Shown piece by piece: positions 5,045 to 30,040 of a DNA stretch of 32,699 nt. How positions within the stretch are numbered: position 1 is the stretch's first letter; every line of letters begins with the position of its first letter. Both the position numbers and the translations under genes were made by a program. The notes under the pieces are model-generated. The model did not search any database and was not told the origin of the DNA. It saw nothing but the letters and a program-made list of their open reading frames with translations. The DNA is from Nanobdellota archaeon (GTDB lineage Archaea; Nanobdellota; Nanobdellia; SCGC-AAA011-G17; GW2011-AR17): NCBI GenBank assembly GCA_018830945.1, contig JAHJRD010000074.1, forward strand, positions 1 through 32,699. Direction: 5' to 3'.

Positions 5045-6100
5045 ATGGCAGACTTATTCAAGGACATGTTATCAGCAGAAGAGTCATTATTCGCAAACGA
5101 AATGGCTCTGGACTTTGACTACTTGCCAAAAGAGCTGCCGCACAGGGAAAACCAGCAGCATTACATAGCTGACTGCATTAAGCTATTACTAGCAGGAAGA
5201 ATGGGGAAGAATCTTCTAATAACAGGCGCTCCTGGCATTGGAAAGACAGCTGCAGTAAAATGGGTTTTAAGGGAAATGGAGGAAAAGGGATTGGATGAAA
5301 AAGCAATTCCATTATATGTGAACTGCTGGAAAAAAGACACACCTCACAAAATCCTATTAGACATCTGCGGCCAGCTGGGATACAAATGGGTGCAAAACAG
5401 GAACACTGATGAATTATTCAAGGAAGTTGCAAACGTACTAAACAAGAAATCAGCAATAATTGTATTGGATGAAGTGGATAAATTAGAGTCAGAGCAGGTG
5501 ATATACCAGCTTATTGAAGACATATACAGGAAATGCATTATCCTGATAACAAATGACATTGAATGGATAGGCGATGTTGATGCAAGATTGAAATCAAGGC
5601 TTGTGCCTGAAACAATTGATTTTAAGCAATATAATCTGGCTGAAACAAATGATATTCTTAAAAGAAGGATAAAGTCAGCTTTTGCGCCGAATGTTTGGGA
5701 AGAAAAGGCCATTGATATTGTTTCTGAAAAAGTGTTTGGCGCAGGAGACATGAGATATGGGCTGTTTTTGTTGAGGGAAGCAGGAAACATTGCTGAGAAA
5801 AAATCATCAAGAAAGGTTAAGCAGGAGCATGCAGAGTCTGCTGTTGAAAAGCTTAGTGATTTCAGCATAAGGAAAGAGCATGAGCTTGATGAGGAAGAGA
5901 AGAATGTTTTGGCCTTGGTTAAAGAGAACCAGGGGAAGACAAGCACTGAATTGTATGATATCTATAAAAAAAACTCTAACAAGTCATACAGGACATTCCA
6001 CAGGAAGTTAAAATCCCTGGAAGAGGCAGGAATTGTTGAAATTGAGGGGGATTTCACAGCAGCCACAGGCGGAAGGGTTTCCAGGGTTAGGATTAAGTGA
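5045..6100 (+). CDS. Orc1/Cdc6-family AAA+ ATPase (divergent)
   Basis: Walker A TGAPGIGKTAAV, Walker B IIVLDEVDKL, C-terminal winged helix. Confidence 0.82.
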   Translation: MADLFKDMLSAEESLFANEMALDFDYLPKELPHRENQQHYIADCIKLLLAGRMGKNLLITGAPGIGKTAAVKWVLREMEEKGLDEKAIPLYVNCWKKDTPHKILLDICGQLGYKWVQNRNTDELFKEVANVLNKKSAIIVLDEVDKLESEQVIYQLIEDIYRKCIILITNDIEWIGDVDARLKSRLVPETIDFKQYNLAETNDILKRRIKSAFAPNVWEEKAIDIVSEKVFGAGDMRYGLFLLREAGNIAEKKSSRKVKQEHAESAVEKLSDFSIRKEHELDEEEKNVLALVKENQGKTSTELYDIYKKNSNKSYRTFHRKLKSLEEAGIVEIEGDFTAATGGRVSRVRIK

Positions 6101-8172: not shown

Positions 8173-8997
8173 TTGGACAAAATAGACATTCTCAAGAAGA
8201 TTGAAACAGAGCTCAAGATCCAGGGAAAGAGCCAAAGAACTATACGCATGTATTGCTATTTCAACAGGAAGTTTATTGAGTTTGCAAACAAAGAGCCTGA
8301 GCAAATCACAACAGATGATATTAAGGCATATTTGGCTGAGCTCATTTCAAAGGGGAACAATGCCGCTTCCCTGGCTTTAGCAAGATCCTCCCTGAAATAC
8401 TTCTATGACGAAATGCTTGAAAAAGGGATTATGGCAAAAATAAAAACACCAAAAAGGCACAGAAAAATACCTGATGTACTTACAAAAGAAGAAGTAAAAC
8501 TCCTTATAGAGAATGCCGGAAGCCTTAGGAACAAGCTGCTTATAGAGATAATGTATGCTTCTGGCCTGAGGGTGTCTGAATGCGCTAGCTTAAAAGTGGA
8601 TGATTTAAACCTAAAGGAGAAAAATGGGCTTTTGAAGCACGGAAAGGGGGGAAAAGACCGCTTTTTCATACTTTCAGAGCAAGTAATAGCTGATTTAGGG
8701 CAATATCTGAAGCAAAATAGTGGAAACACTTATCTCTTTCCAGGCACCAAAGGCCCAATAACAGCAAAGGCTATACAAGATGTTATAAAGCGCGTTGCAA
8801 AGCGAACCGACATTAAAAAACACGTTCACTGCCATGGCTTAAGGCATGCATTTGCAACCCACCTATTGGAGGCAGGCACTGACATAAGAGTAATACAGGA
8901 ACTTTTGGCGCATTCAAACCTTCAAACAACACAGTTTTACACGCAAATAAGCAAGCAGCAGCTGATGAGGGTAAAAAGCCCAATGGATTCGCTATAA
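8173..8997 (+). CDS. xerA: Tyrosine recombinase (XerA-like)
   Basis: ASGLRVSE, HGKGGKDR, HCHGLRHAFATHLLEAGTDIRVIQELLAHSNLQTTQFYTQIS; TTG start with upstream gaggagga. Confidence 0.9.
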   Translation: MDKIDILKKIETELKIQGKSQRTIRMYCYFNRKFIEFANKEPEQITTDDIKAYLAELISKGNNAASLALARSSLKYFYDEMLEKGIMAKIKTPKRHRKIPDVLTKEEVKLLIENAGSLRNKLLIEIMYASGLRVSECASLKVDDLNLKEKNGLLKHGKGGKDRFFILSEQVIADLGQYLKQNSGNTYLFPGTKGPITAKAIQDVIKRVAKRTDIKKHVHCHGLRHAFATHLLEAGTDIRVIQELLAHSNLQTTQFYTQISKQQLMRVKSPMDSL

Positions 8998-9529: not shown

Positions 9530-10150
9530 CTATTTTCTTATTCTGGCTTTCATAACATCGACGATAGGCATTTTCTTTTTTAAGCAGGGATTCTTGTCTG
9601 TTGAGACAATATAAGCCTGTTTTCCTTTTCGTTTTCTCTTTACAAAGCCCATTTCCTCAAGCGCAGAAACAAACTGCGACAAGGTAGACCTGATAAACCC
9701 GTATTCCTTGTCAGGATAAAGCTCCTGTGCAAGATACTTAAGGCTTATCCACTGCCCGGGCATTTCTTTTTGCAGTACGGCAAGCTTCCAGCAGAGCTTT
9801 TGCTGTGTTTCTGTTAGGGTGTCCCACAGTGCCTCGTCTTGCTCATCGCTGGAAGCGCCTCCTGCTGCCTCTTCTATTTCCTCTGATTCCACCAGCTTTC
9901 CCGATGCCTTACTCAAAGAATGTTCAAGCAAGTATAACCGCTTTTCAATCGAATGAATATCCTTTACCTGCTTTTGATTGGTTGTGTTAAAGTGGTGAAG
10001 AAGTTTAGATATATGTTCCATGTCTTTTCTTAAATTGTTAAAAGACTGCTGAACAGATTTTTCAAAGGAATCCATGCGATGAGTATGCTTGGATTTGAAC
10101 AAAGGAGAATTTGAAAATGTTTCTTTTAGAGATTCAAAAAGCCCGGACAT
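9530..10150 (-). CDS. Coiled-coil protein with C-terminal wHTH
   Basis: N-terminal SFEKSVQQSFNNLRKDMEHIS heptad region; C-terminal LAQELYPDKEYGFIRSTLSQFVSALEEMGFVKRKRKGKQAYIV. Confidence 0.7.
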   Translation of the reverse strand: MSGLFESLKETFSNSPLFKSKHTHRMDSFEKSVQQSFNNLRKDMEHISKLLHHFNTTNQKQVKDIHSIEKRLYLLEHSLSKASGKLVESEEIEEAAGGASSDEQDEALWDTLTETQQKLCWKLAVLQKEMPGQWISLKYLAQELYPDKEYGFIRSTLSQFVSALEEMGFVKRKRKGKQAYIVSTDKNPCLKKKMPIVDVMKARIRK

Positions 10151-10192
10151 ATAGTTAGGGTAGATGAGCTACTTATTAAAGCTTTCGATTGT

Positions 10193-10290
10193 TTACCGAC
10201 GCGTTACAGACGTCTGCTAACGTGTCGGTAACACGTTACCGACGCGTCACCGACGCATTACTAACGCATTACTAACGCTTGTTTGACGAG
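10193..10290. repeat. Array of nine degenerate ~11-bp tandem repeats (iterons), consensus TTACYRACGCR
   Basis: TTACCGACGCG TTACAGACGTC TGCTAACGTG TCGGTAACACG TTACCGACGCG TCACCGACGCA TTACTAACGCA TTACTAACGCT TGTTTGACGAG. Confidence 0.85.
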
Positions 10291-10579
10291 GGAAAATGAA
10301 AAATTTGTGAAAATTTTCAAAAAAGAAAAAAATAATCCGGAAAAAGGTAAAAATCTACAAAAAAATGAGCTGTTAAAAACAAGCAAGAACCTAAAAAATA
10401 GCAAAAACATGAAAAATAAAGCAGAATACAAGATACTTGTTTTTGCAGCTGCAAAGGCCGCTTTAAACAATGAAAAAAAGAATAAAAATGAGAGTTTAGA
10501 GCATAATAAAATCAGCAATTGGGGCAGCCAATAGAAAAAATAAGGGAAAATGAGAGGGATTGAGGGCGAGATATAATGA

Positions 10580-10653
10580 TTATACGAAGATTATTGACAA
10601 ATATTCGAAAACAGAGTTTTCGGATATCCGAAAATGCATAGCATTTTCGAATA
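10580..10653 (+). repeat. Nested-palindrome element, copy B
   Basis: TTATACGAAG...TATTCGAAAACAGAGTTTTCGGATATCCGAAAATGCATAGCATTTTCGAATA. Confidence 0.7.
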
Positions 10654-11048
10654 AAATGAGAGTTCAGAAGCAGGATCAAGGGTTGAAAAATGACCAGCTG
10701 CAGACAAAAAAGAGTTCTGAGAGCGAAAAAACACCTGAAAAAGAGTTCTGACAGCTGATAAAGGCCAAAAAAAGAGTTTTTAGAGACTAATAAAGGATAA
10801 AAACAAGGAAAAATAGTGCTAAAAACAGCTATTAAGGCTTTAGAATGGTTTTAATGACACTATAATCGGGCCAAAGAACAGCTTAAAAAGAGCTATACAA
10901 GCTTTAAATGGTATATAAGGCAGCAAAAAGAGTGTTTAAAAGGAATGGCTATGATATATAGGGCGTTAAGCAGCGAAAAATGGCTAAAAATAGATAAGAA
11001 AAGCGATAATTCAAGCCAATTAAGCAGCCTCAAGGCAAAAAATGAGAG

Positions 11049-11894
11049 TTAGAAGCTTCCAAGCCTTTTTTGATTAGGCATGGCTGTTTCATAATACATT
11101 GAAATTAACTCTTTTTTAAGGCTTAAATCCATAAATTCCTTAGGAATCTGCAAAAACACTGTTTTATTGTTATATTTGACCTTTTCCAAGGGTATTCTCT
11201 TGCGCATAAGACCGCTGATATATGTCCTTATGCAGCCTTCTGAGAGTTTAAGCCTGTTTGCGACATCCAGATAAGACACATTTGAGCCTTTCTCTTCGGA
11301 AACCTCATATATTGTCAGGAAAGTCCTTAATTCCTGCTTGGAAAGCAGGGAAAACGCCCCCAGCAGATCCTGCCTGGAAGCTGAAATAACAGCTAATTCA
11401 GAGCTTTTAACCATCTTTGGCCTTAAGTCCTTAAATGGATTTTCCGTTGTCAAATATGTGTTTTTCTGTGATTCTGGAAGCTCCTGCCTGGGCTGCACTG
11501 GCACCATAACAGGGCCATTCATAGCCAGCGGTTTATCTACCTCTTCGGAAGAATGCGATTTCTCTTCGGAGAGTTTCTCCTCCTCCTGTTTAGTGCATGA
11601 ATGAATAGTGAATGAATGAATATTTGAATAAACCCCTTCATTTCCTATGGAACTCTCAAATGAGGCTATTTTACCCTCTAATTGCTTCAAACGAGCTAAA
11701 ATATCATCTAATTTACTAAAAACAGAAGAAAATTCACTATTTTTGCTTGAAATAGCTTCTTTTCCGGCTTTAATATCGGCTTCAAGAGCATTCATATGCT
11801 CCTTAACCTTTAGAAATGAGGATTTAACAGCCTCTTCAAAATTATCTTTCTTGTTGTTTTTAAGCCCCAGAAGCTCCCTAGCGTTCAATTTCAA
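11049..11894 (-). CDS. Coiled-coil protein with C-terminal wHTH, related to the 9530..10150 product
   Basis: N-terminal NFEEAVKSSFLKVKEHMNALEADI; C-terminal YLDVANRLKLSEGCIRTYISGLMRKRIPLEKVKYNNKTVFLQI. Confidence 0.7.
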   Translation of the reverse strand: MKLNARELLGLKNNKKDNFEEAVKSSFLKVKEHMNALEADIKAGKEAISSKNSEFSSVFSKLDDILARLKQLEGKIASFESSIGNEGVYSNIHSFTIHSCTKQEEEKLSEEKSHSSEEVDKPLAMNGPVMVPVQPRQELPESQKNTYLTTENPFKDLRPKMVKSSELAVISASRQDLLGAFSLLSKQELRTFLTIYEVSEEKGSNVSYLDVANRLKLSEGCIRTYISGLMRKRIPLEKVKYNNKTVFLQIPKEFMDLSLKKELISMYYETAMPNQKRLGSF

Positions 11895-11952
11895 TGTTTA
11901 AACCCCCTAATTAATTATGTGCACAGGATGTGCATAAGATGTGCATAAGTGT

Positions 11953-12375
11953 TTAACCCATGTAATTTGCCTTGCCTTTGGCAGCTAATGTAGGCATAGG
12001 GATGTGTGGAGGAAGCCCTATCTCCTGGGATAACAGCAGCGCCTTAATATTAGATCTGAACAGCACTGCATTCATTACCCGTTCCATCAGGGAAGGATCA
12101 ACCTTCTTTGTCTTTTTCCAGTCTGAATATATCCTTTCAATATCTTTTTCTTTCTCTGTAATAAGAATATGCCCTTTTAATTCAACAACAGCCTGCTTTG
12201 GCGTGTAATCAAGTCCAAACACAAAGTCAAACCTTAATACTGCATTTCCCTTGTCAGAAGATTTCTCCTTTTTGACGTCGGTAACAGATATGTTTGAATT
12301 TATTTTTAGCGGTGCTTCAATGTCTTTTAATTTCTCAACGAGAAACTTGTCAAATATTATTCCGGTTATTGCCAT
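11953..12375 (-). CDS. Conserved-looking hypothetical protein, possibly SecB-like fold
   Basis: Intact ORF (longest form 11953..12399; internal ATG gives MAITGIIFDKFLVEKL); beta-rich, ends VMNAVLFRSNIKALLLSQEIGLPPHIPMPTL. SecB analogy is weak. Confidence 0.55.
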   Translation of the reverse strand: MAITGIIFDKFLVEKLKDIEAPLKINSNISVTDVKKEKSSDKGNAVLRFDFVFGLDYTPKQAVVELKGHILITEKEKDIERIYSDWKKTKKVDPSLMERVMNAVLFRSNIKALLLSQEIGLPPHIPMPTLAAKGKANYMG

Positions 12376-21952: not shown

Positions 21953-22410
21953 AAACCCAGACACACACACCTTTTTTTCCTATGGAAACCAAGTATAAAA
22001 CCATAAATAAGCCTTAAGACACCAATATTTCTAATGGAATGCTTGTTTTTGCTTTTCAATTGGAAGGAAATATTATAATAATATATAATAAAACTAAAAG
22101 ATAAATAAGAAAAGAAAGGTAAAAACCCTGTTTTTTGTGTTTATGTTTATTTTAACTCGTCAAAAGCTATTTTTTGCCTTTTGTTTTATTTTAAGCTTTT
22201 CGGTTATATAATATATATATTATAATATATATTATATAGTATATGTATATATATACAAAGAAAACATACACTAAAAATGTTTTTTCCATTTTCCATAGGA
22301 AACAGAGGTATCACTCTCAAATTTTGGCTTTAGCCAAAAAGACAAAAGACTCTCCAAAAGAAATAGAGGTTTGATTATCTATATTACATCATAATAATTG
22401 CAGTATAACA
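21953..22410. other. Putative replication origin (oriC) with ORB-like boxes and AT-only tract
   Basis: TTCCTATGGAAACCAAG (21977-21993), TTCCATAGGAAACAGAGGTATCAC (22291-22314), near-pure AT tract 22204-22256, directly upstream of cdc6. Confidence 0.65.
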
Positions 22411-23652
22411 ATGCTTAAAAACATAATAAGTCTATTTCAAGGCATGACTGAAAAGCTAACTTCTTTTTTTGAGGAATATCTTCAGAAAGAATCTATTTTT
22501 AAAGACAAGCCAGTTCTTCTTTCAAGCCATACGCCAGAGATAATGCCCCATCGTGATCCTGAAATAGAAAAAATAGCGGCAATCCTTGCTCCGTCATTAA
22601 AGCTGGAAAAACCATCCAACCTTTTTATCTACGGCACAACAGGCACCGGGAAAACAGTTGTCACAAAATATGTTACTTCAAAAATGCAAGAGATAACAGA
22701 AAAAACAAATGCAGGGTTAAAGATATACAGCATAAATTGCAAGCTGAAAAAGGTTGCTGACACTGAGTACAGGCTGATAGCAGATGTTGCAAGGACGGTG
22801 TTTAATGAAAATATTCCTGAAACAGGGCTATCAACAAACGAAGTATACAAGACTTTTGTAAATGCGCTTGACAAGGAAAGGATACTTCTTATAATGGTGC
22901 TGGATGAAATAGACAGCCTTGTGGACAAGATAGGCGACGAGATATTATATAATCTTACAAGGCTTAACTCTGAGCTGAAAAGAAGCCAGCTTTCAATCAT
23001 CGGAATATCAAACAAGCTTGATTTCACAGACCACATGGATGCAAGGGTGAAAAGCTCGCTTTGCGAGGAAGAGCTGCAGTTCTTTAAATACAATGCAGTG
23101 CAAATACTTGACATCCTGAAAGAAAGGTCTAACACGGCCTTTAGGGAAGGCACAATAGCAGAAGGTGTTTTGGAAAAATGCGCAGCGTATGCAGCAACCC
23201 ACGGGGATGCGCGAAGGGCGATAGATTTGTTGAGGGTGGCTGCAGAGCTTACAGAACGAAAAAACGAAACAAAGATTACAATTAGCTGTCTTGACGAGGC
23301 AGATGAAAAGCTTGACAATGACAAGTATTATGATGCTGTAAGGATGATGCCAAAGCATTCTCAGATGGTTCTTTTGTCGCTCTTTGACCTTTGCTCGCAG
23401 AGCAAGGACAAGCCGGTTTTAAGCGGGAATGCCTATGATGCTTACAAAACCCTTTGCGCCAACCTGAAATATAAATTCCTTACACAGCGCATGTTCTCCA
23501 ATCTATTGGGGGAAATGGAACTGCAGGGCATAATCCAAGCGAAAATAGTCAGCCACGGCAGGTATGGCAGGACAAGGCACCTTTGCCTCGGCATCCCTCC
23601 TTCAACCGCTCCTAAAATAGAAAGGTTGCTTAGAGAGGGGCTGGGTGTATGA
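22411..23652 (+). CDS. cdc6: Orc1/Cdc6 replication initiator
   Basis: YGTTGTGKTVVTKYV Walker A, LIMVLDEIDSLVDK Walker B, HGDARRAIDLLRVAAE sensor 2, C-terminal wHTH. Confidence 0.93.
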   Translation: MLKNIISLFQGMTEKLTSFFEEYLQKESIFKDKPVLLSSHTPEIMPHRDPEIEKIAAILAPSLKLEKPSNLFIYGTTGTGKTVVTKYVTSKMQEITEKTNAGLKIYSINCKLKKVADTEYRLIADVARTVFNENIPETGLSTNEVYKTFVNALDKERILLIMVLDEIDSLVDKIGDEILYNLTRLNSELKRSQLSIIGISNKLDFTDHMDARVKSSLCEEELQFFKYNAVQILDILKERSNTAFREGTIAEGVLEKCAAYAATHGDARRAIDLLRVAAELTERKNETKITISCLDEADEKLDNDKYYDAVRMMPKHSQMVLLSLFDLCSQSKDKPVLSGNAYDAYKTLCANLKYKFLTQRMFSNLLGEMELQGIIQAKIVSHGRYGRTRHLCLGIPPSTAPKIERLLREGLGV

Positions 23653-25126: not shown

Positions 25127-28100
25127 ATGGAAGCAAGCCTAAAAATGCAGGAATATTTCAGGAAGATTGATGAAGAAGTGAATAAAGTGTATGCCTTTGC
25201 AAATGAAGCAAAAGCAAAGGGGTTTGATCCGGACATAAAAGTAAGGGTTCCTCTTGCAAAAAATATGGCAGAAAGGGTTGAAGGGCTTATTTCCACTGTC
25301 GCGCCTGAGATTGTTGGAAAAGGTGTTGTTGAAAGGATAGGCGAGCTGGAAAAGCAGTATGGGCTGCAGGACTGGAGAGTGGCTTTGAAAATAGCAGAGG
25401 AAGTGGCTTTTGAAAAATTCTGCAAATTTTCAGATAAGATAAAGGCGATTGAAACAGGAATAAGGATTGGGTTTGCTTATGTTACAGTTGGCGTTGTTTC
25501 TTCTCCTCTTGAGGGTTTTGCAGGGATAAGGCTTACAAAGAGAAATGATGACGGCAAGGAGTATTTTGCTTTATTCTATTCAGGTCCTGTAAGAAGCGCA
25601 GGAGGCACAGGCGCCGCTGTGTCTGTTCTGATTGCGGATTATGTAAGGAAAAAAATGGGATACGCGCAGTACGATCCTGATGAAACTGAAGTAAAAAGGG
25701 CGTGCATTGAGGTTTCTGATTATCATGAGCGTGTCACAAATTTGCAGTATCGCCCTTCTGATGAAGAAGTTGCATTTATGTCTTCTCATTTGCCTGTGCA
25801 GATAGAAGGTGACGGCACAGCAGAGATTGAAGTAAGCAATTACAAGGGTCTGAGCAGGATTGAAGCAAACAGAATAAGAGGCGGATTTTGCCTTGTTATT
25901 GCAGAATGCCTTTCAGCAAAAGCAAAAAAGCTATGGAAGCAGCTATCCAAATGGGGCAAGGACTTTGATTTGGAGCAGTGGAATTTTCTTGCAGAGTTTC
26001 TTGAGCTGCAGGATAGGGTTAAGGCAAAAGGAGCTGTTGCAAAAAAGGAAACCAAAGAGCAGATACTTCCGGACTACACATTCATCAAAGACCTTGTTGC
26101 AGGAAGGCCTATTATTGCTTACCCTTTAAGAAATGGGGGTTTGAGGCTTAGGTATGGAAGGGGGCGTGCTTCTGGCTTGTCTTCTGATGCAATTAATCCA
26201 GCCACAATGTTCATACTTGACTCATTTATTGGGATTGGAACCCAGCTTAAGACAGAAAGGCCCGGCAAGTCAACCACAATCTCTGTCTGCGACTGCATAG
26301 ACGGGCCAATAGTAAAGTTGAACAACGGCAGTGTTAAGCGCATTGAAACAATTGAAGATGCAAAGCAGTATAACAAGGATGTTGCTGAGATAATTTATCT
26401 TGGGGATGTGCTTGTTAATTACGGTGATTTCCTAAACAGGGGGCATAAGCTTGTGCCTTGCGGATTTAATGAAGAGTGGTGGGGGCTTTGCATTGAAAAA
26501 GCGCTTGTTGAAAAAGGAAAGGATGCTGCTGAAGCAGGTGTTAAGGATATTCTTGAAAAGCCTATAACTGCAAAGGTTTGCCTGAAAGATGCATTGGAGA
26601 TTTCAAAATCCCTTGGAGTTCCTCTGCACCCAAGATGGATATATTACTGGAACACATTAAGCAAAGAGCAGTTTTCTGCTTTATATGCTTCGCTTTTGTC
26701 AGCTGCTGTTGAGCCTGGAAAAGTGATTCTTTCTGCTCCTGACGAGACAACAAAAAGAGCATTGGAGCTGATTGGAATTCCACATACTTCTGTTTCAAAA
26801 GAGCACGTTGTTATTGAAGGGGATGATGCAGATGCATTGGTAGCAAACCTTGGCAATCTCCAGTCAAAACCAGAAGGAGAAAGCATTCTTGACATGGTAA
26901 ACAGTGCGTCTTCTGTTAAAATCAAGGATAAGCTTGGCACATTCATCGGCGCAAGAATGGGAAGGCCTGAAAAAGCTAAGATGAGAAAGCTGAAGAGCAG
27001 CCCCCATGTGCTCTTTCCTGTCGGAGATGAAGGGGGAAGGCTTAGGAGTTTTCAGGCTGCTTTGGAAAAAGGAAAGGTGACTGCGCAGTTTCCGATAAGA
27101 TACTGCAAGAAATGCGGTAAAAAAACAGTTTATCTTATGTGCGAGGAATGCGGCGGAGAATCTGAATTAAAATATTTCTGCCCCAAATGCAACAAGGAAA
27201 CCGATGAATCTTCCTGCCCCACACACGGGGAATGCCTTCCTTTCAAGAAAGAATCAATTGACATAAATTCTTATTATAACAGGGCGCTTAAAAAATCGAA
27301 ATTGCAGCACTTTCCAGAGATAGTTAAAGGCATAAGGGGAACCTCAAACAAGGAGCACATACCGGAGCATATACTTAAAGGTATTTTAAGGGCAAAGCAC
27401 AATATCTGCGTAAACAAGGAAGGCACGATAAGATATGATATGACTGAAATGAGCTGCACACATTTCAAGCCGTGCGAAGTAGGGGTTTCTGTTGAAAAGA
27501 TGCGTGAGATGGATTATACAGAAGACTGTTACGGCAAGCCTCTTGAAAACCCTGAGCAGATACTTGAGCTGAAGGCGCAGGATGTTATCCTTCCTGCATG
27601 CGAGGATGCTCTTGAAGAAGGCGCTGACAATGTGCTTTTTCGTGTTGCGAACTTCATAGACGATATGCTTGTTTTGCTTTACGAACAGAAGGCATATTAT
27701 AATCTTAAAACAAAACAAGAATTAGTTGGACATTTATGCGTTGCAATGTCCCCGCATACAGCGGCAGGCATTGTTTGCAGGATAGTTGGCTTTTCAAAAA
27801 CCCAGGGGTTTCTTGCGCATCCTCTTTTGCACTGCATTATGCGCAGGGATTGCCTTGCTTATGAAACAACATTGCCTATTTTCGATGGGGTGAAATGGAA
27901 TCTAGCAAAGATAGGAGAGGTTGTAGAAAAACTTAATCCAACAAGAAGGGTTGACTTTTATGGAACTAAGGCTGTTAAGGTAAAAGGATTTAAAACGCTG
28001 GGGCTAAATGTTCATACGAGGAAGCTTGAGGAAGTGGCAATAAGAGATTTTACAAAACATGCTAAAAGAAATATTATTAAAATAAAATTAGAGGAGGGCA

Positions 28101-30040
28101 GGAGCATAAGGGTTACAGAAAATCATGCCTTTTGCATAAAAAAAGGAAAAAGGTTAGAACGAAAAGAAGCCAAAGACCTTTTGGTTGGAGATGAATTGCT
28201 GCAGCCAATATCAACAAAGGTCAAGGAAACTGATTTTTCTCACTTTAATCTTTTTGAAATATTTTCCGGAAGAAAAAATGTTGTGGCAAGGGGAATTAAG
28301 GGTAATGTGATTAATGCTGTAAGGAAGATAAGCAAGCCTCTTGTAAGGAAAAGAGCAAGTGTCTCAAAATCCGTCTTGGACAATTATCTTGCTCGGGACA
28401 GTTTTCCTCTTGATTTTCTGAATAAAATGGATGAGTCTTTTGGAATGAAATTTTCTTTAAAAAATGCAAGAATCGCCGTAAAACGCGATACTGTTGAGTT
28501 AAAGCCATTTATAGAATTAAACAAAGATGTTCTTTGGTTGATAGGGCTTTATGTCGCAGAGGGATATTCAAGGGCAAAAGAAGGAAAAAAAGGACTGTTT
28601 CAGGTTGACTTTGCAGCAACTGAGAAGGAAATAAGGGATAAAATCATAAAAATTTGCAAAATGAATTTTGGATTACTCCCCAGCTATATCTCAAAAGAGC
28701 ACATAGTGTTCTCAAGCATGCTCCTGTACGAGCTCTTTATTGACTTTTTAGGGTGTGGAAAAAAGGCTTATGGAAAGAAGGTGCCATCTTTATTCTTGTC
28801 ACTTCCGCTGAAAAAATTGAGGCATTTTATTTCCGGATATTATGATGGAGACGGCTCTGTTTCTCTTTCAGATGCAAGAGTAACATGTGATTCTGTCAGT
28901 AATGAACTTTTAGCAGGTATTGAATTCTGCCTTTCGCGTTTTGGGATATATACGAAGAGGCATACATATAGGCACAAGCCCGGAGCAAAAGTAAGTTCCT
29001 TCTATATAAGGAAGGGGAGAAAAATTCCGGAATTTGAAGTCACAAAGCTGATTGTTCCGAGCAGCTTTTTTGTCAGATTCTACAAAGAAATTGGTTTCTC
29101 TTTGGCACGAAAGCAGAATATTTTAAAACAACTTGTAAATAAGACCAAACCTTATGGAATGAAGATAAAACACGACACCTATTATGTATATCCGCGTGTA
29201 GTATCTGTTGAGAAAGAAAGAGCAGAAGAAACATATTGCCTTAATGTTGAGAACCATATCATCTTTCCAAATAACATATCGACTTACCAATGCGACGGAG
29301 ATGAAGCAGCTGTGATGCTTTTGACAGACCACTTGCTTAACTTCTCAAAAAAGTTTTTGCCGAACACAAGAGGCGCGACACAGGACGCTCCTTTGCTTAT
29401 TACAACAAAGCTAATACCTGCTGAGGTTGATGATATGGTGTTTGACATGGACACTGCATGGAAATATCCTATTGAGCTTTATGAGGCGGCAGAGCAGTAC
29501 AAGGCTCCTTATGAGGTAAAAGGGATTGAGATATTCAGGCAAAGGCTGGGAACAGAGGGGCAGTATGAAGGCATGGGTTTTACGCACGACACATCTGATT
29601 TCAATATGGGTGTCCTGTGCAGCGCATACAAGTCAATACCTTCAATGAAAGAAAAGGTGACGAAGCAAATGATCCTTGCAGAGAAAATAAGGGCTGCTGA
29701 TGCTGATGACACTGCGCGCCTTATAATAGAAAGGCATTTCATAAGGGATATCAAAGGCAACCTTAGGAAATTTTCAACGCAGCAGTTCAGATGCGTTGGC
29801 TGTAATGCAAAATACAGAAGGCCCCCTTTGCAAGGGCATTGTTTGAAATGCGGGGGAAAGATAATTTTCACAATATCCCACGGCTCTGTGATAAAGTATG
29901 TGGAACCTGTTGATGATTTGATAAGAAAGTATAATGTTCCTGCTTACTTGAGGCAGACTGTTGAAATTACCAAGAAAAGAATTGATTCTGTGTTTGGAAG
30001 GGATGCAGAAAGGCAGGAAGGGCTTAACAAGTGGTTCTAA
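25127..30040 (+). CDS. polC: DNA polymerase D large subunit DP2, interrupted by an intein
   Basis: SGPVRSAGGTGAAVSVLIADYVR, zinc ribbons CKKCGKKTVYLMCEECGG and CVGCNAKYRRPPLQGHCLKCGG, CDGDEAAVMLLTDHLLNFS. Confidence 0.97.
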   Translation: MEASLKMQEYFRKIDEEVNKVYAFANEAKAKGFDPDIKVRVPLAKNMAERVEGLISTVAPEIVGKGVVERIGELEKQYGLQDWRVALKIAEEVAFEKFCKFSDKIKAIETGIRIGFAYVTVGVVSSPLEGFAGIRLTKRNDDGKEYFALFYSGPVRSAGGTGAAVSVLIADYVRKKMGYAQYDPDETEVKRACIEVSDYHERVTNLQYRPSDEEVAFMSSHLPVQIEGDGTAEIEVSNYKGLSRIEANRIRGGFCLVIAECLSAKAKKLWKQLSKWGKDFDLEQWNFLAEFLELQDRVKAKGAVAKKETKEQILPDYTFIKDLVAGRPIIAYPLRNGGLRLRYGRGRASGLSSDAINPATMFILDSFIGIGTQLKTERPGKSTTISVCDCIDGPIVKLNNGSVKRIETIEDAKQYNKDVAEIIYLGDVLVNYGDFLNRGHKLVPCGFNEEWWGLCIEKALVEKGKDAAEAGVKDILEKPITAKVCLKDALEISKSLGVPLHPRWIYYWNTLSKEQFSALYASLLSAAVEPGKVILSAPDETTKRALELIGIPHTSVSKEHVVIEGDDADALVANLGNLQSKPEGESILDMVNSASSVKIKDKLGTFIGARMGRPEKAKMRKLKSSPHVLFPVGDEGGRLRSFQAALEKGKVTAQFPIRYCKKCGKKTVYLMCEECGGESELKYFCPKCNKETDESSCPTHGECLPFKKESIDINSYYNRALKKSKLQHFPEIVKGIRGTSNKEHIPEHILKGILRAKHNICVNKEGTIRYDMTEMSCTHFKPCEVGVSVEKMREMDYTEDCYGKPLENPEQILELKAQDVILPACEDALEEGADNVLFRVANFIDDMLVLLYEQKAYYNLKTKQELVGHLCVAMSPHTAAGIVCRIVGFSKTQGFLAHPLLHCIMRRDCLAYETTLPIFDGVKWNLAKIGEVVEKLNPTRRVDFYGTKAVKVKGFKTLGLNVHTRKLEEVAIRDFTKHAKRNIIKIKLEEGRSIRVTENHAFCIKKGKRLERKEAKDLLVGDELLQPISTKVKETDFSHFNLFEIFSGRKNVVARGIKGNVINAVRKISKPLVRKRASVSKSVLDNYLARDSFPLDFLNKMDESFGMKFSLKNARIAVKRDTVELKPFIELNKDVLWLIGLYVAEGYSRAKEGKKGLFQVDFAATEKEIRDKIIKICKMNFGLLPSYISKEHIVFSSMLLYELFIDFLGCGKKAYGKKVPSLFLSLPLKKLRHFISGYYDGDGSVSLSDARVTCDSVSNELLAGIEFCLSRFGIYTKRHTYRHKPGAKVSSFYIRKGRKIPEFEVTKLIVPSSFFVRFYKEIGFSLARKQNILKQLVNKTKPYGMKIKHDTYYVYPRVVSVEKERAEETYCLNVENHIIFPNNISTYQCDGDEAAVMLLTDHLLNFSKKFLPNTRGATQDAPLLITTKLIPAEVDDMVFDMDTAWKYPIELYEAAEQYKAPYEVKGIEIFRQRLGTEGQYEGMGFTHDTSDFNMGVLCSAYKSIPSMKEKVTKQMILAEKIRAADADDTARLIIERHFIRDIKGNLRKFSTQQFRCVGCNAKYRRPPLQGHCLKCGGKIIFTISHGSVIKYVEPVDDLIRKYNVPAYLRQTVEITKKRIDSVFGRDAERQEGLNKWF
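27851..29290 (+). mobile_element. Intein with LAGLIDADG homing endonuclease in DP2 (480 codons)
   Basis: Cys1 in RRD|CLAYETTLPI; block B VTENHAF; endonuclease motifs LIGLYVAEGY and ISGYYDGDGS; C-terminal end NNISTYQ|CDGDE. Confidence 0.93.

Follow-up and report, generated by a model that had tools for sequence, protein, structure and literature searches.

An origin-proximal locus with two winged-helix proteins and two sets of diverging iterons, a candidate chromosome anchor in DPANN archaea

Computational analysis shows that an 11-bp iteron array in an archaeal contig is real, is conserved across an order, lies near a replication origin, and belongs to a locus in which two proteins, B and A, have predicted specificity for the array and for a second set of repeats, respectively, and in which an embedded origin recognition box (ORB) and embedded iterons are under selection at the DNA level. 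Throughout an order of Woesearchaeota-like DPANN archaea, the two genes keep their tandem arrangement at a distance of 1.5-16 kb from an Orc1-type oriC. We favour, by a modest balance of the evidence, the interpretation that the array is a multi-site target of B within an origin-proximal two-protein, two-iteron locus and that it acts as a centromere or anchor of the chromosome. We know of no account of how chromosomes are segregated in DPANN archaea, which have tiny genomes and are mostly uncultured, and of only a few proposed archaeal centromeres. The locus is a concrete, conserved candidate, and its predicted protein-DNA pairs and residue-to-base rules are testable in vitro.

The DNA analysed (the window; 32,699 bp) is one entire contig of a 1.5-Mb, 109-contig archaeal genome. 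It contains orc1/cdc6, both PolD subunits, Lon, ArgRS, and an XerA-type recombinase (PolD, Lon, and ArgRS being identified from their sequences), and scans of the window for Rfam families and for tRNAs returned zero matches. The features of the locus are listed in Table 1, in which gene 9530-10150 is designated B and gene 11049-11894 is designated A. The minus strand carries both genes, one behind the other, and the array directly precedes B, the second gene; an earlier, sequence-only reading of this DNA had placed the array between divergent coiled-coil/wHTH contexts, and in this it was mistaken. The window also contains a second Orc1/Cdc6-like protein (5045-6100; no Cdc6_C domain match), which is kept near the locus in the genus, and a PolD large-subunit gene (25127-30040) that apparently carries an intein, with hedgehog/intein and homing-endonuclease-like sequence in an insertion at about residues 950-1400. 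Three minus-strand copies of AACTCTCAYTTTT (10484-10496, 10652-10664, and 11038-11050) lie just past the A stop codon and in the A-B intergenic region; this element, which is also present 3' of A in five relatives, is possibly another binding site or a terminator.

Table 1. Positions of the features of the locus and of the predicted origin in the window
Feature	Coordinates	Strand	Description
XerA-type tyrosine recombinase	8173..8997	+	recurring neighbour of the A/B locus
Gene B	9530..10150	-	N-terminus aromatic or amphipathic; long coiled-coil helix 16-83; C-terminal winged helix, recognition helix 150-167
BRE/TATA-like promoter element of B, CGAAAGCTTTAATAAG	~10172..10187	-	read from sequence; inferred from archaeal promoter consensus
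B iteron array	10193..10290		seven palindromic units of 11 bp (CGTYRNYRACG class), plus a 10-bp and a degenerate unit
Special central palindrome AGACGTCT	10208..10215		at the 10-bp step
Gene A	11049..11894	-	coiled-coil helix 16-77; disordered linker; C-terminal winged helix; C-terminal QxxL motif
A-type repeats in A coding sequence	11585..11631	-	directly past the ORB; TTCATTCA, TTCATGCAC
Exact origin recognition box TTCCATAGGAAATGAAGGGGT	11632..11652	-	in A coding sequence; motif from PMC4164010
A-type 11-bp repeats upstream of A	11917..11949	-	TTATGCACATC, three copies
Predicted canonical oriC	21967..22372		ORB-like boxes at 21967 (-), 22019 (-), 22291 (+), and 22352 (+, weak)
orc1/cdc6 initiator gene	22411..23652	+	

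The array has a period-11 self-match of 0.61 over 98 bp, the top period-11 score in the window, and in a 70-bp period-11 test scores 0.69, as compared to a maximum of 0.59 among 100 dinucleotide shuffles. Its GC content is 51%, vs. 34-41% in the neighbourhood. The sequence-only reading had claimed a tandem array of ~11-bp units at 10193-10290 in a GC-rich patch of AT-rich DNA, and both claims are borne out; its count of nine 11-mers is right for seven well-formed 11-bp units, starting at 10193, 10204, 10225 (inverted), 10236, 10247, 10258, and 10269, and gives way, for the rest of a clean nine, to one 10-bp unit (10215-10224) beside the central palindrome and one degenerate stretch (10280-10290). 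The spacing from 10204 to 10236 is 32 bp, corresponding to 11+10+11. The 10-bp step is not noise, because 29 of 62 upstream regions of orthologs contain AGACGTC (0.25 expected from shuffles), commonly 65-71 bp before the start codon and in unrelated families. The array is better described as palindromic dimer sites of 11 bp, CGTYRNYRACG, set end to end with a single step of 10 bp. The BRE/TATA-like element stands between the array and the B ATG, with the array ending a few bases before the element, and the earlier statements that the array starts 43 bp from the ATG and overlaps the promoter region are correct. Elsewhere in the genome, the consensus TTACYRACGCR has only one match, on a different contig. 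A CGTCGAT-like element is frequent at the promoter-distal end of the B array (seen in six orthologous loci) and in the window is at 10277-10288, minus strand, as CTCGTCAAA.

The locus is conserved across the order. In comparisons in which nearly all genomes were draft or metagenome-derived, a single-sequence search detected B in 46 of 60 relatives, mostly of the same family and order, and a profile search recovered B from 90 of the 103 genomes of the order and from 46 of the 47 good genomes. A was detected in 49 of the 60 relatives, and A-type winged-helix proteins in 179 of 236 genomes drawn from the phylum. The gene order A-array-B is conserved, as is the surrounding cluster, orc1/PolD - PRC - Lon - ArgRS - small gene - A - B - Xer; a closed genome of 736,702 bp has orc1 at 270.9 kb, A/B at 286.6-287.9 kb, and Xer at 297 kb. 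Looking for arrays beside orthologs of B, a check proposed with the sequence-only reading, revealed arrays upstream of B orthologs across the order: for 25 of 30 upstream regions of orthologs, no more than 4 in 100 dinucleotide shuffles matched the 11-bp period score, whereas weak arrays, of which four are examples, failed the period test. The array word varies by lineage, with CGTTAGTAACG, GTTCGGTGAAC, GTCTACGAC, GTTCACTGAAC, and GTTAAC types. Gene A was not found in one genome (G006, with loci on contigs C41 and C24), which apparently has a gene of the type at 11953 directly upstream of B, a normal B array, and its sole exact ORB upstream of orc1. A shorter gene of the A type, noted at ten loci in other orders of the class, often neighbours an XerA-type recombinase and has after it a palindromic TTGATTAAAASTTTTAATC-like element that could be a dif or A site.

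To relate the repeats to the proteins, we compared array similarity (5-mer vectors of the upstream region) to residue identity at each B alignment column, using pairs of genomes from different families and regressing out overall B identity, with these two steps constituting the whole of the phylogenetic control. B residue 156 was the top column of 170 (r = 0.517; 5.3 SD above the mean; 0 of 2000 permutations), and positions 153, 154, 159, and 160 were likewise in the top six. All five residues are within helix 150-167, the predicted recognition helix of the winged helix in an AlphaFold2 model of B comprising a coiled coil and a winged helix (mean pLDDT 79 overall and ~90 in the winged-helix domain; structures here are single-chain predictions). 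At residue 159, E pairs with CTACGA/GTCGACGA words and Q pairs with CGGTAA/ACCGAA words, and this pairing holds inside a single family (f12; G044 and G271 vs. G055, G269, and G252), with exceptions to the rule such as genome G292, which has Q with a TCGTCGAAC word. As a control, the highest correlation of any A column with the B array was r = 0.219. For the repeats in A linker DNA and upstream of A, the top column was A residue 224 (0.389 and 0.374, respectively), which lies in the predicted recognition helix of A, residues 219-231. Mainly because of this double dissociation, obtained with family exclusion and identity regression only, we propose that B very probably binds the array and that A very probably binds its own repeats; the specificity of B for the array is, as a prediction, well supported computationally.

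The N-terminus of B has an unusual composition. It comprises an aromatic/hydrophobic cluster followed by lysines or arginines (e.g., MVWWLFKKK or MGFLFFGKK), or, in the genus of the window, instead an amphipathic stretch, MPGFLEIIKQKFF. At least two aromatics in residues 2-7 are present in 54 of 62 B proteins, in 57 of 565 crude proteome ORFs of genome G022, and in 0 of 28 A proteins; at least two aromatics together with at least three basic residues are present in 84% of B proteins vs. 2% of crude proteome ORFs. This composition suggests that the N-terminus of B may dock on the membrane.

The repeats of A are embedded in coding sequence, beside an ORB. The common archaeal ORB motif of DoriC is TCCA[CG]T[TG]GAAA[TC][GA]AAGGGGT (PMC4164010, table 1), and the consensus of the box in A is the same. 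Its sequence TTCCANNGGAAANNNNGGGGT, exact in 49 of 70 A genes and with one mismatch in 15 (64 of 70 in total), encodes SSxGNxGV, the best-conserved peptide of the disordered linker of A. The codons of the box are fixed (Ser as TCC; Gly as GGA and GGG), whereas elsewhere in the same genes TCC accounts for 12% of Ser codons and GGA and GGG for 28% and 23% of Gly codons; and in nine A genes the box, in some cases diverged, is read in another frame, yielding VPQETRGS, VPQEMKGS, SPSERKGY, and others. Fixed codons and alternative frames imply that the box is held at the DNA level, and a reading of SSxGNxGV as a protein motif was rejected on this evidence, which shows an ORB. The exact ORB pattern occurs 65 times across 102 genomes of the order, vs. 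0 for a reversed control pattern; three of the 65 matches are at orc1-side origins (G006, G030, and G046), and the other matches that could be placed fall within an A gene or A paralog or directly before one. The box in A is usually the strongest ORB of its genome; by coordinates, in loci containing both, it lies ~1.5-16 kb from the boxes on the orc1 side and faces away from them. It is highly likely that Orc1 binds it.

Past the ORB, the A linker DNA consists of successive short repeats, and their words recur upstream of A in the same genome, with a linker-to-upstream similarity of 0.32 in the own genome and 0.13 with another family. In shuffles that preserved the protein and the codon usage of the gene, the observed repeat score of A linkers was matched in no more than 1% of trials in 63 of 69 genes; a downstream control segment of A passed the same threshold in 11 of 69, probably because some linkers extend into it. 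Such strong selection at the DNA level on initiator and iteron sites in coding sequence would escape origin finders that consider intergenic DNA only, e.g., Ori-Finder 2 (PMC4164010). At the C-terminus of A is a QxxL[F/S/G] motif (window 11049-11100 and alignment), with QxxL in 53 of 59 A proteins vs. 6% of proteome C-termini; some orthologs have a PIP-box-like sequence (QKSLFDSFF), and on a PIP-box reading the C-terminus of A possibly contacts PCNA.

These features support the main rival to the anchor reading, according to which Orc1, A, and B, near the origin, regulate or assist initiation, with a co-initiator of the WhiP kind or with a titration or negative-control site, and the B array is a regulatory iteron cluster. 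The exact ORB in A fits this explanation and the anchor reading equally well; the A sites adjoin the ORB, the QxxL motif is strongly enriched, and an ORB cluster downstream of Haloarcula oriC2 has been proposed to exert negative control (PMC4010727), providing a published model. However, upstream of orc1 there is already a canonical oriC, which has inverted ORBs and a stretch rich in TA, the B array is without an ORB, and the membrane-type N-terminus of B is left unexplained. In the window, the boxes of the predicted oriC are weaker than the box in A and flank a TA-rich stretch at 22205-22255, just upstream of orc1; GC skew in genome G022 has a broad minimum at 270-322 kb, which agrees with the origin placement and is not decisive. 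We consider control of replication to be a possible but rather unlikely main role. A separate candidate, that the array is oriC itself, is disfavoured because the canonical oriC lies upstream of orc1.

A simpler explanation is plain autoregulation, in which the array serves only as an operator for B, itself an ordinary transcription factor. The array does abut the BRE/TATA element of B, its units are palindromic dimer sites, and the folds are generic MarR/ArsR-like wHTH folds. The least compatible point comes from ~20 genomes that have a variant, B', in which the N-terminus and coiled coil of B are constant but the winged-helix domain is different. The B' genes are mostly convergent with A and have no obvious promoter array; their C-terminal DNA-binding domain is of two types, LSIVTVRRHINDIKR and LGKDxSTIRGQINNIK; and their iterons, GTTCATGAACGTTCAATC or TGTCCAAACAGC repeats, lie within the part of the B' gene that encodes the linker. 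The repeat scores of 19 of 21 B' linkers exceed those of all 500 synonymous shuffles, as compared to 0 for control segments. The persistence of the array away from the promoter in these genomes argues against a mere operator, as do the order-wide linkage to the origin, the length of the array (up to eight or nine units, long for an operator), and the specialised N-terminus and coiled coil of B. We therefore regard autoregulation as improbable as the sole role. Descent from an iteron plasmid or virus that had integrated, B having been the Rep or partition protein, is brought to mind by iterons beside DNA-binding protein genes, which are typical of plasmids, and by the nearby tyrosine recombinase, but is contradicted by position and synteny that are conserved vertically across the order, with no homolog in 72,556 plasmids and no relative among viral contigs (a single-protein query that detects close relatives only), and is very improbable, except perhaps as an ancient domestication.

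We return to the anchor reading. On this proposal, B dimers would read one palindromic 11-bp unit per helical turn through the winged HTH, and, because there is one unit per helical turn, several dimers would line up next to each other along the same face of the DNA. B on the array would sit just upstream of its own promoter, and autoregulation of B is likely. The coiled coil of B would cluster the complex, and its aromatic/basic N-terminus would dock the complex on the membrane; A would bind its own repeats, both those before its gene and those within it beside the embedded Orc1 box, and would thereby connect the complex with the initiator and the newly fired origin. The steps that we infer are autoregulation, membrane docking, contact between A and B, and segregation or anchoring; anchoring or segregation is, we think, somewhat the better candidate for the main role. 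A partner motor gene was absent from the A/B cluster, and the ParA/MinD-family genes found elsewhere are generic. Array words are confined to a single locus in the window genome and in the closed relative, and a dispersed-site reading, of the SegB or nucleoid-protein kind, was rejected for this reason. Tentatively, and with less than even confidence, we suggest that the locus represents a new DPANN origin-anchored chromosome maintenance system, in which A and B, coiled-coil winged-helix proteins alike in architecture, each read iterons of their own that diverge rapidly, B holds the origin region at the membrane, A connects it with Orc1 via the ORB in its own gene, and iterons shift between promoter and coding sequence as the DNA-binding domain swaps.

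The sequence-only reading had offered three options for the array: a centromere, an operator on which filaments form cooperatively, or a replication iteron. The options held up insofar as arrays stand beside orthologs and the recognition helix of B covaries with the repeat word. As an interpretation, the centromere fits best of the three, and we lean toward it; the operator is supported by position, but a pure operator is unlikely, since iterons also lie in B' coding sequence; and a link to replication is real, but through an Orc1 origin 1.5-16 kb away and an Orc1 box in A, unlike the kind of link that had been suggested.

The A/B locus fits no described family with which we compared it, and a search of open-access literature for DPANN origins or centromeres yielded nothing on the A and B proteins. 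The TubR proteins of pBtoxis and pBM400 are small winged-helix proteins that bind and repress at tandem repeats upstream of their own operon, and these repeats are the centromere (PMC5016525). B and its array share with TubR/tubC a small, predicted winged-helix binder and tandem repeats upstream of the gene of that binder, and in a Foldseek search with B, TubR chains rank 2 and 5, with an E of ~0.009 that is not significant and mixed with generic ArsR/MarR folds; we make no claim of TubR membership for B. The A/B locus differs in having no TubZ in the cluster, in the coiled coil and aromatic N-terminus that B adds, in being chromosomal, and in encoding a further protein, A, which comes with iterons of its own and an ORB. 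In ParR/parC of plasmid R1, iterons spaced by about one helical turn overlap the promoter of the operon of the binder (PMC5016525), and the B array likewise has 10-12-bp iterons at or over a promoter. The analogy to R1 parC drawn in the earlier reading thus stands as a functional likeness but not as a relationship: ParR is a ribbon-helix-helix protein with an actin-like ParM, whereas B is a winged-helix protein with no match to an RHH family, and the conserved A/B cluster has no ParM gene. ParR membership was rejected on the fold of B (coiled coil plus winged helix) and the missing ParM.

SegAB, a chromosomal system of Sulfolobales, includes a DNA-binding protein whose sites cluster close to the genes of the system and, in certain species, close to oriC1; the sites of SegB are a conserved 13-bp palindrome scattered over the chromosome, and SegB is linked to the ParA-type SegA (PMC12284271). 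The likeness is in archaeal chromosomal sites clustered near the genes of the binder or the origin. In contrast, the words of the A/B array diverge by lineage and occupy a single locus with no adjacent SegA; PF13614 matches are present in 17 of 20 genomes, with none within the A/B cluster. SegAB membership was rejected, there being no linked ParA-type ATPase and no scatter of sites. Winged-helix accessory or initiator proteins at archaeal origins are known (PMC12141716). Unlike the boxes of known archaeal Orc1/ORB origins, the ORB of A sits in a protein-coding gene, kilobases from the orc1-side oriC and beside lineage-specific iterons, and our searches with A and B yielded no match to the Orc1, WhiP (Sulfolobus oriC3), or UBP (UBP/ucm) families. 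RacA of Bacillus has a MerR-like DNA-binding domain and a coiled coil, occupies dispersed origin-proximal sites, and is attached to the cell periphery through DivIVA. As a tentative parallel, B resembles RacA in its combination of a DNA-binding domain with a coiled coil, in its origin-proximal sites, and in its proposed peripheral attachment, and differs in that attachment of B would be through its own N-terminus.
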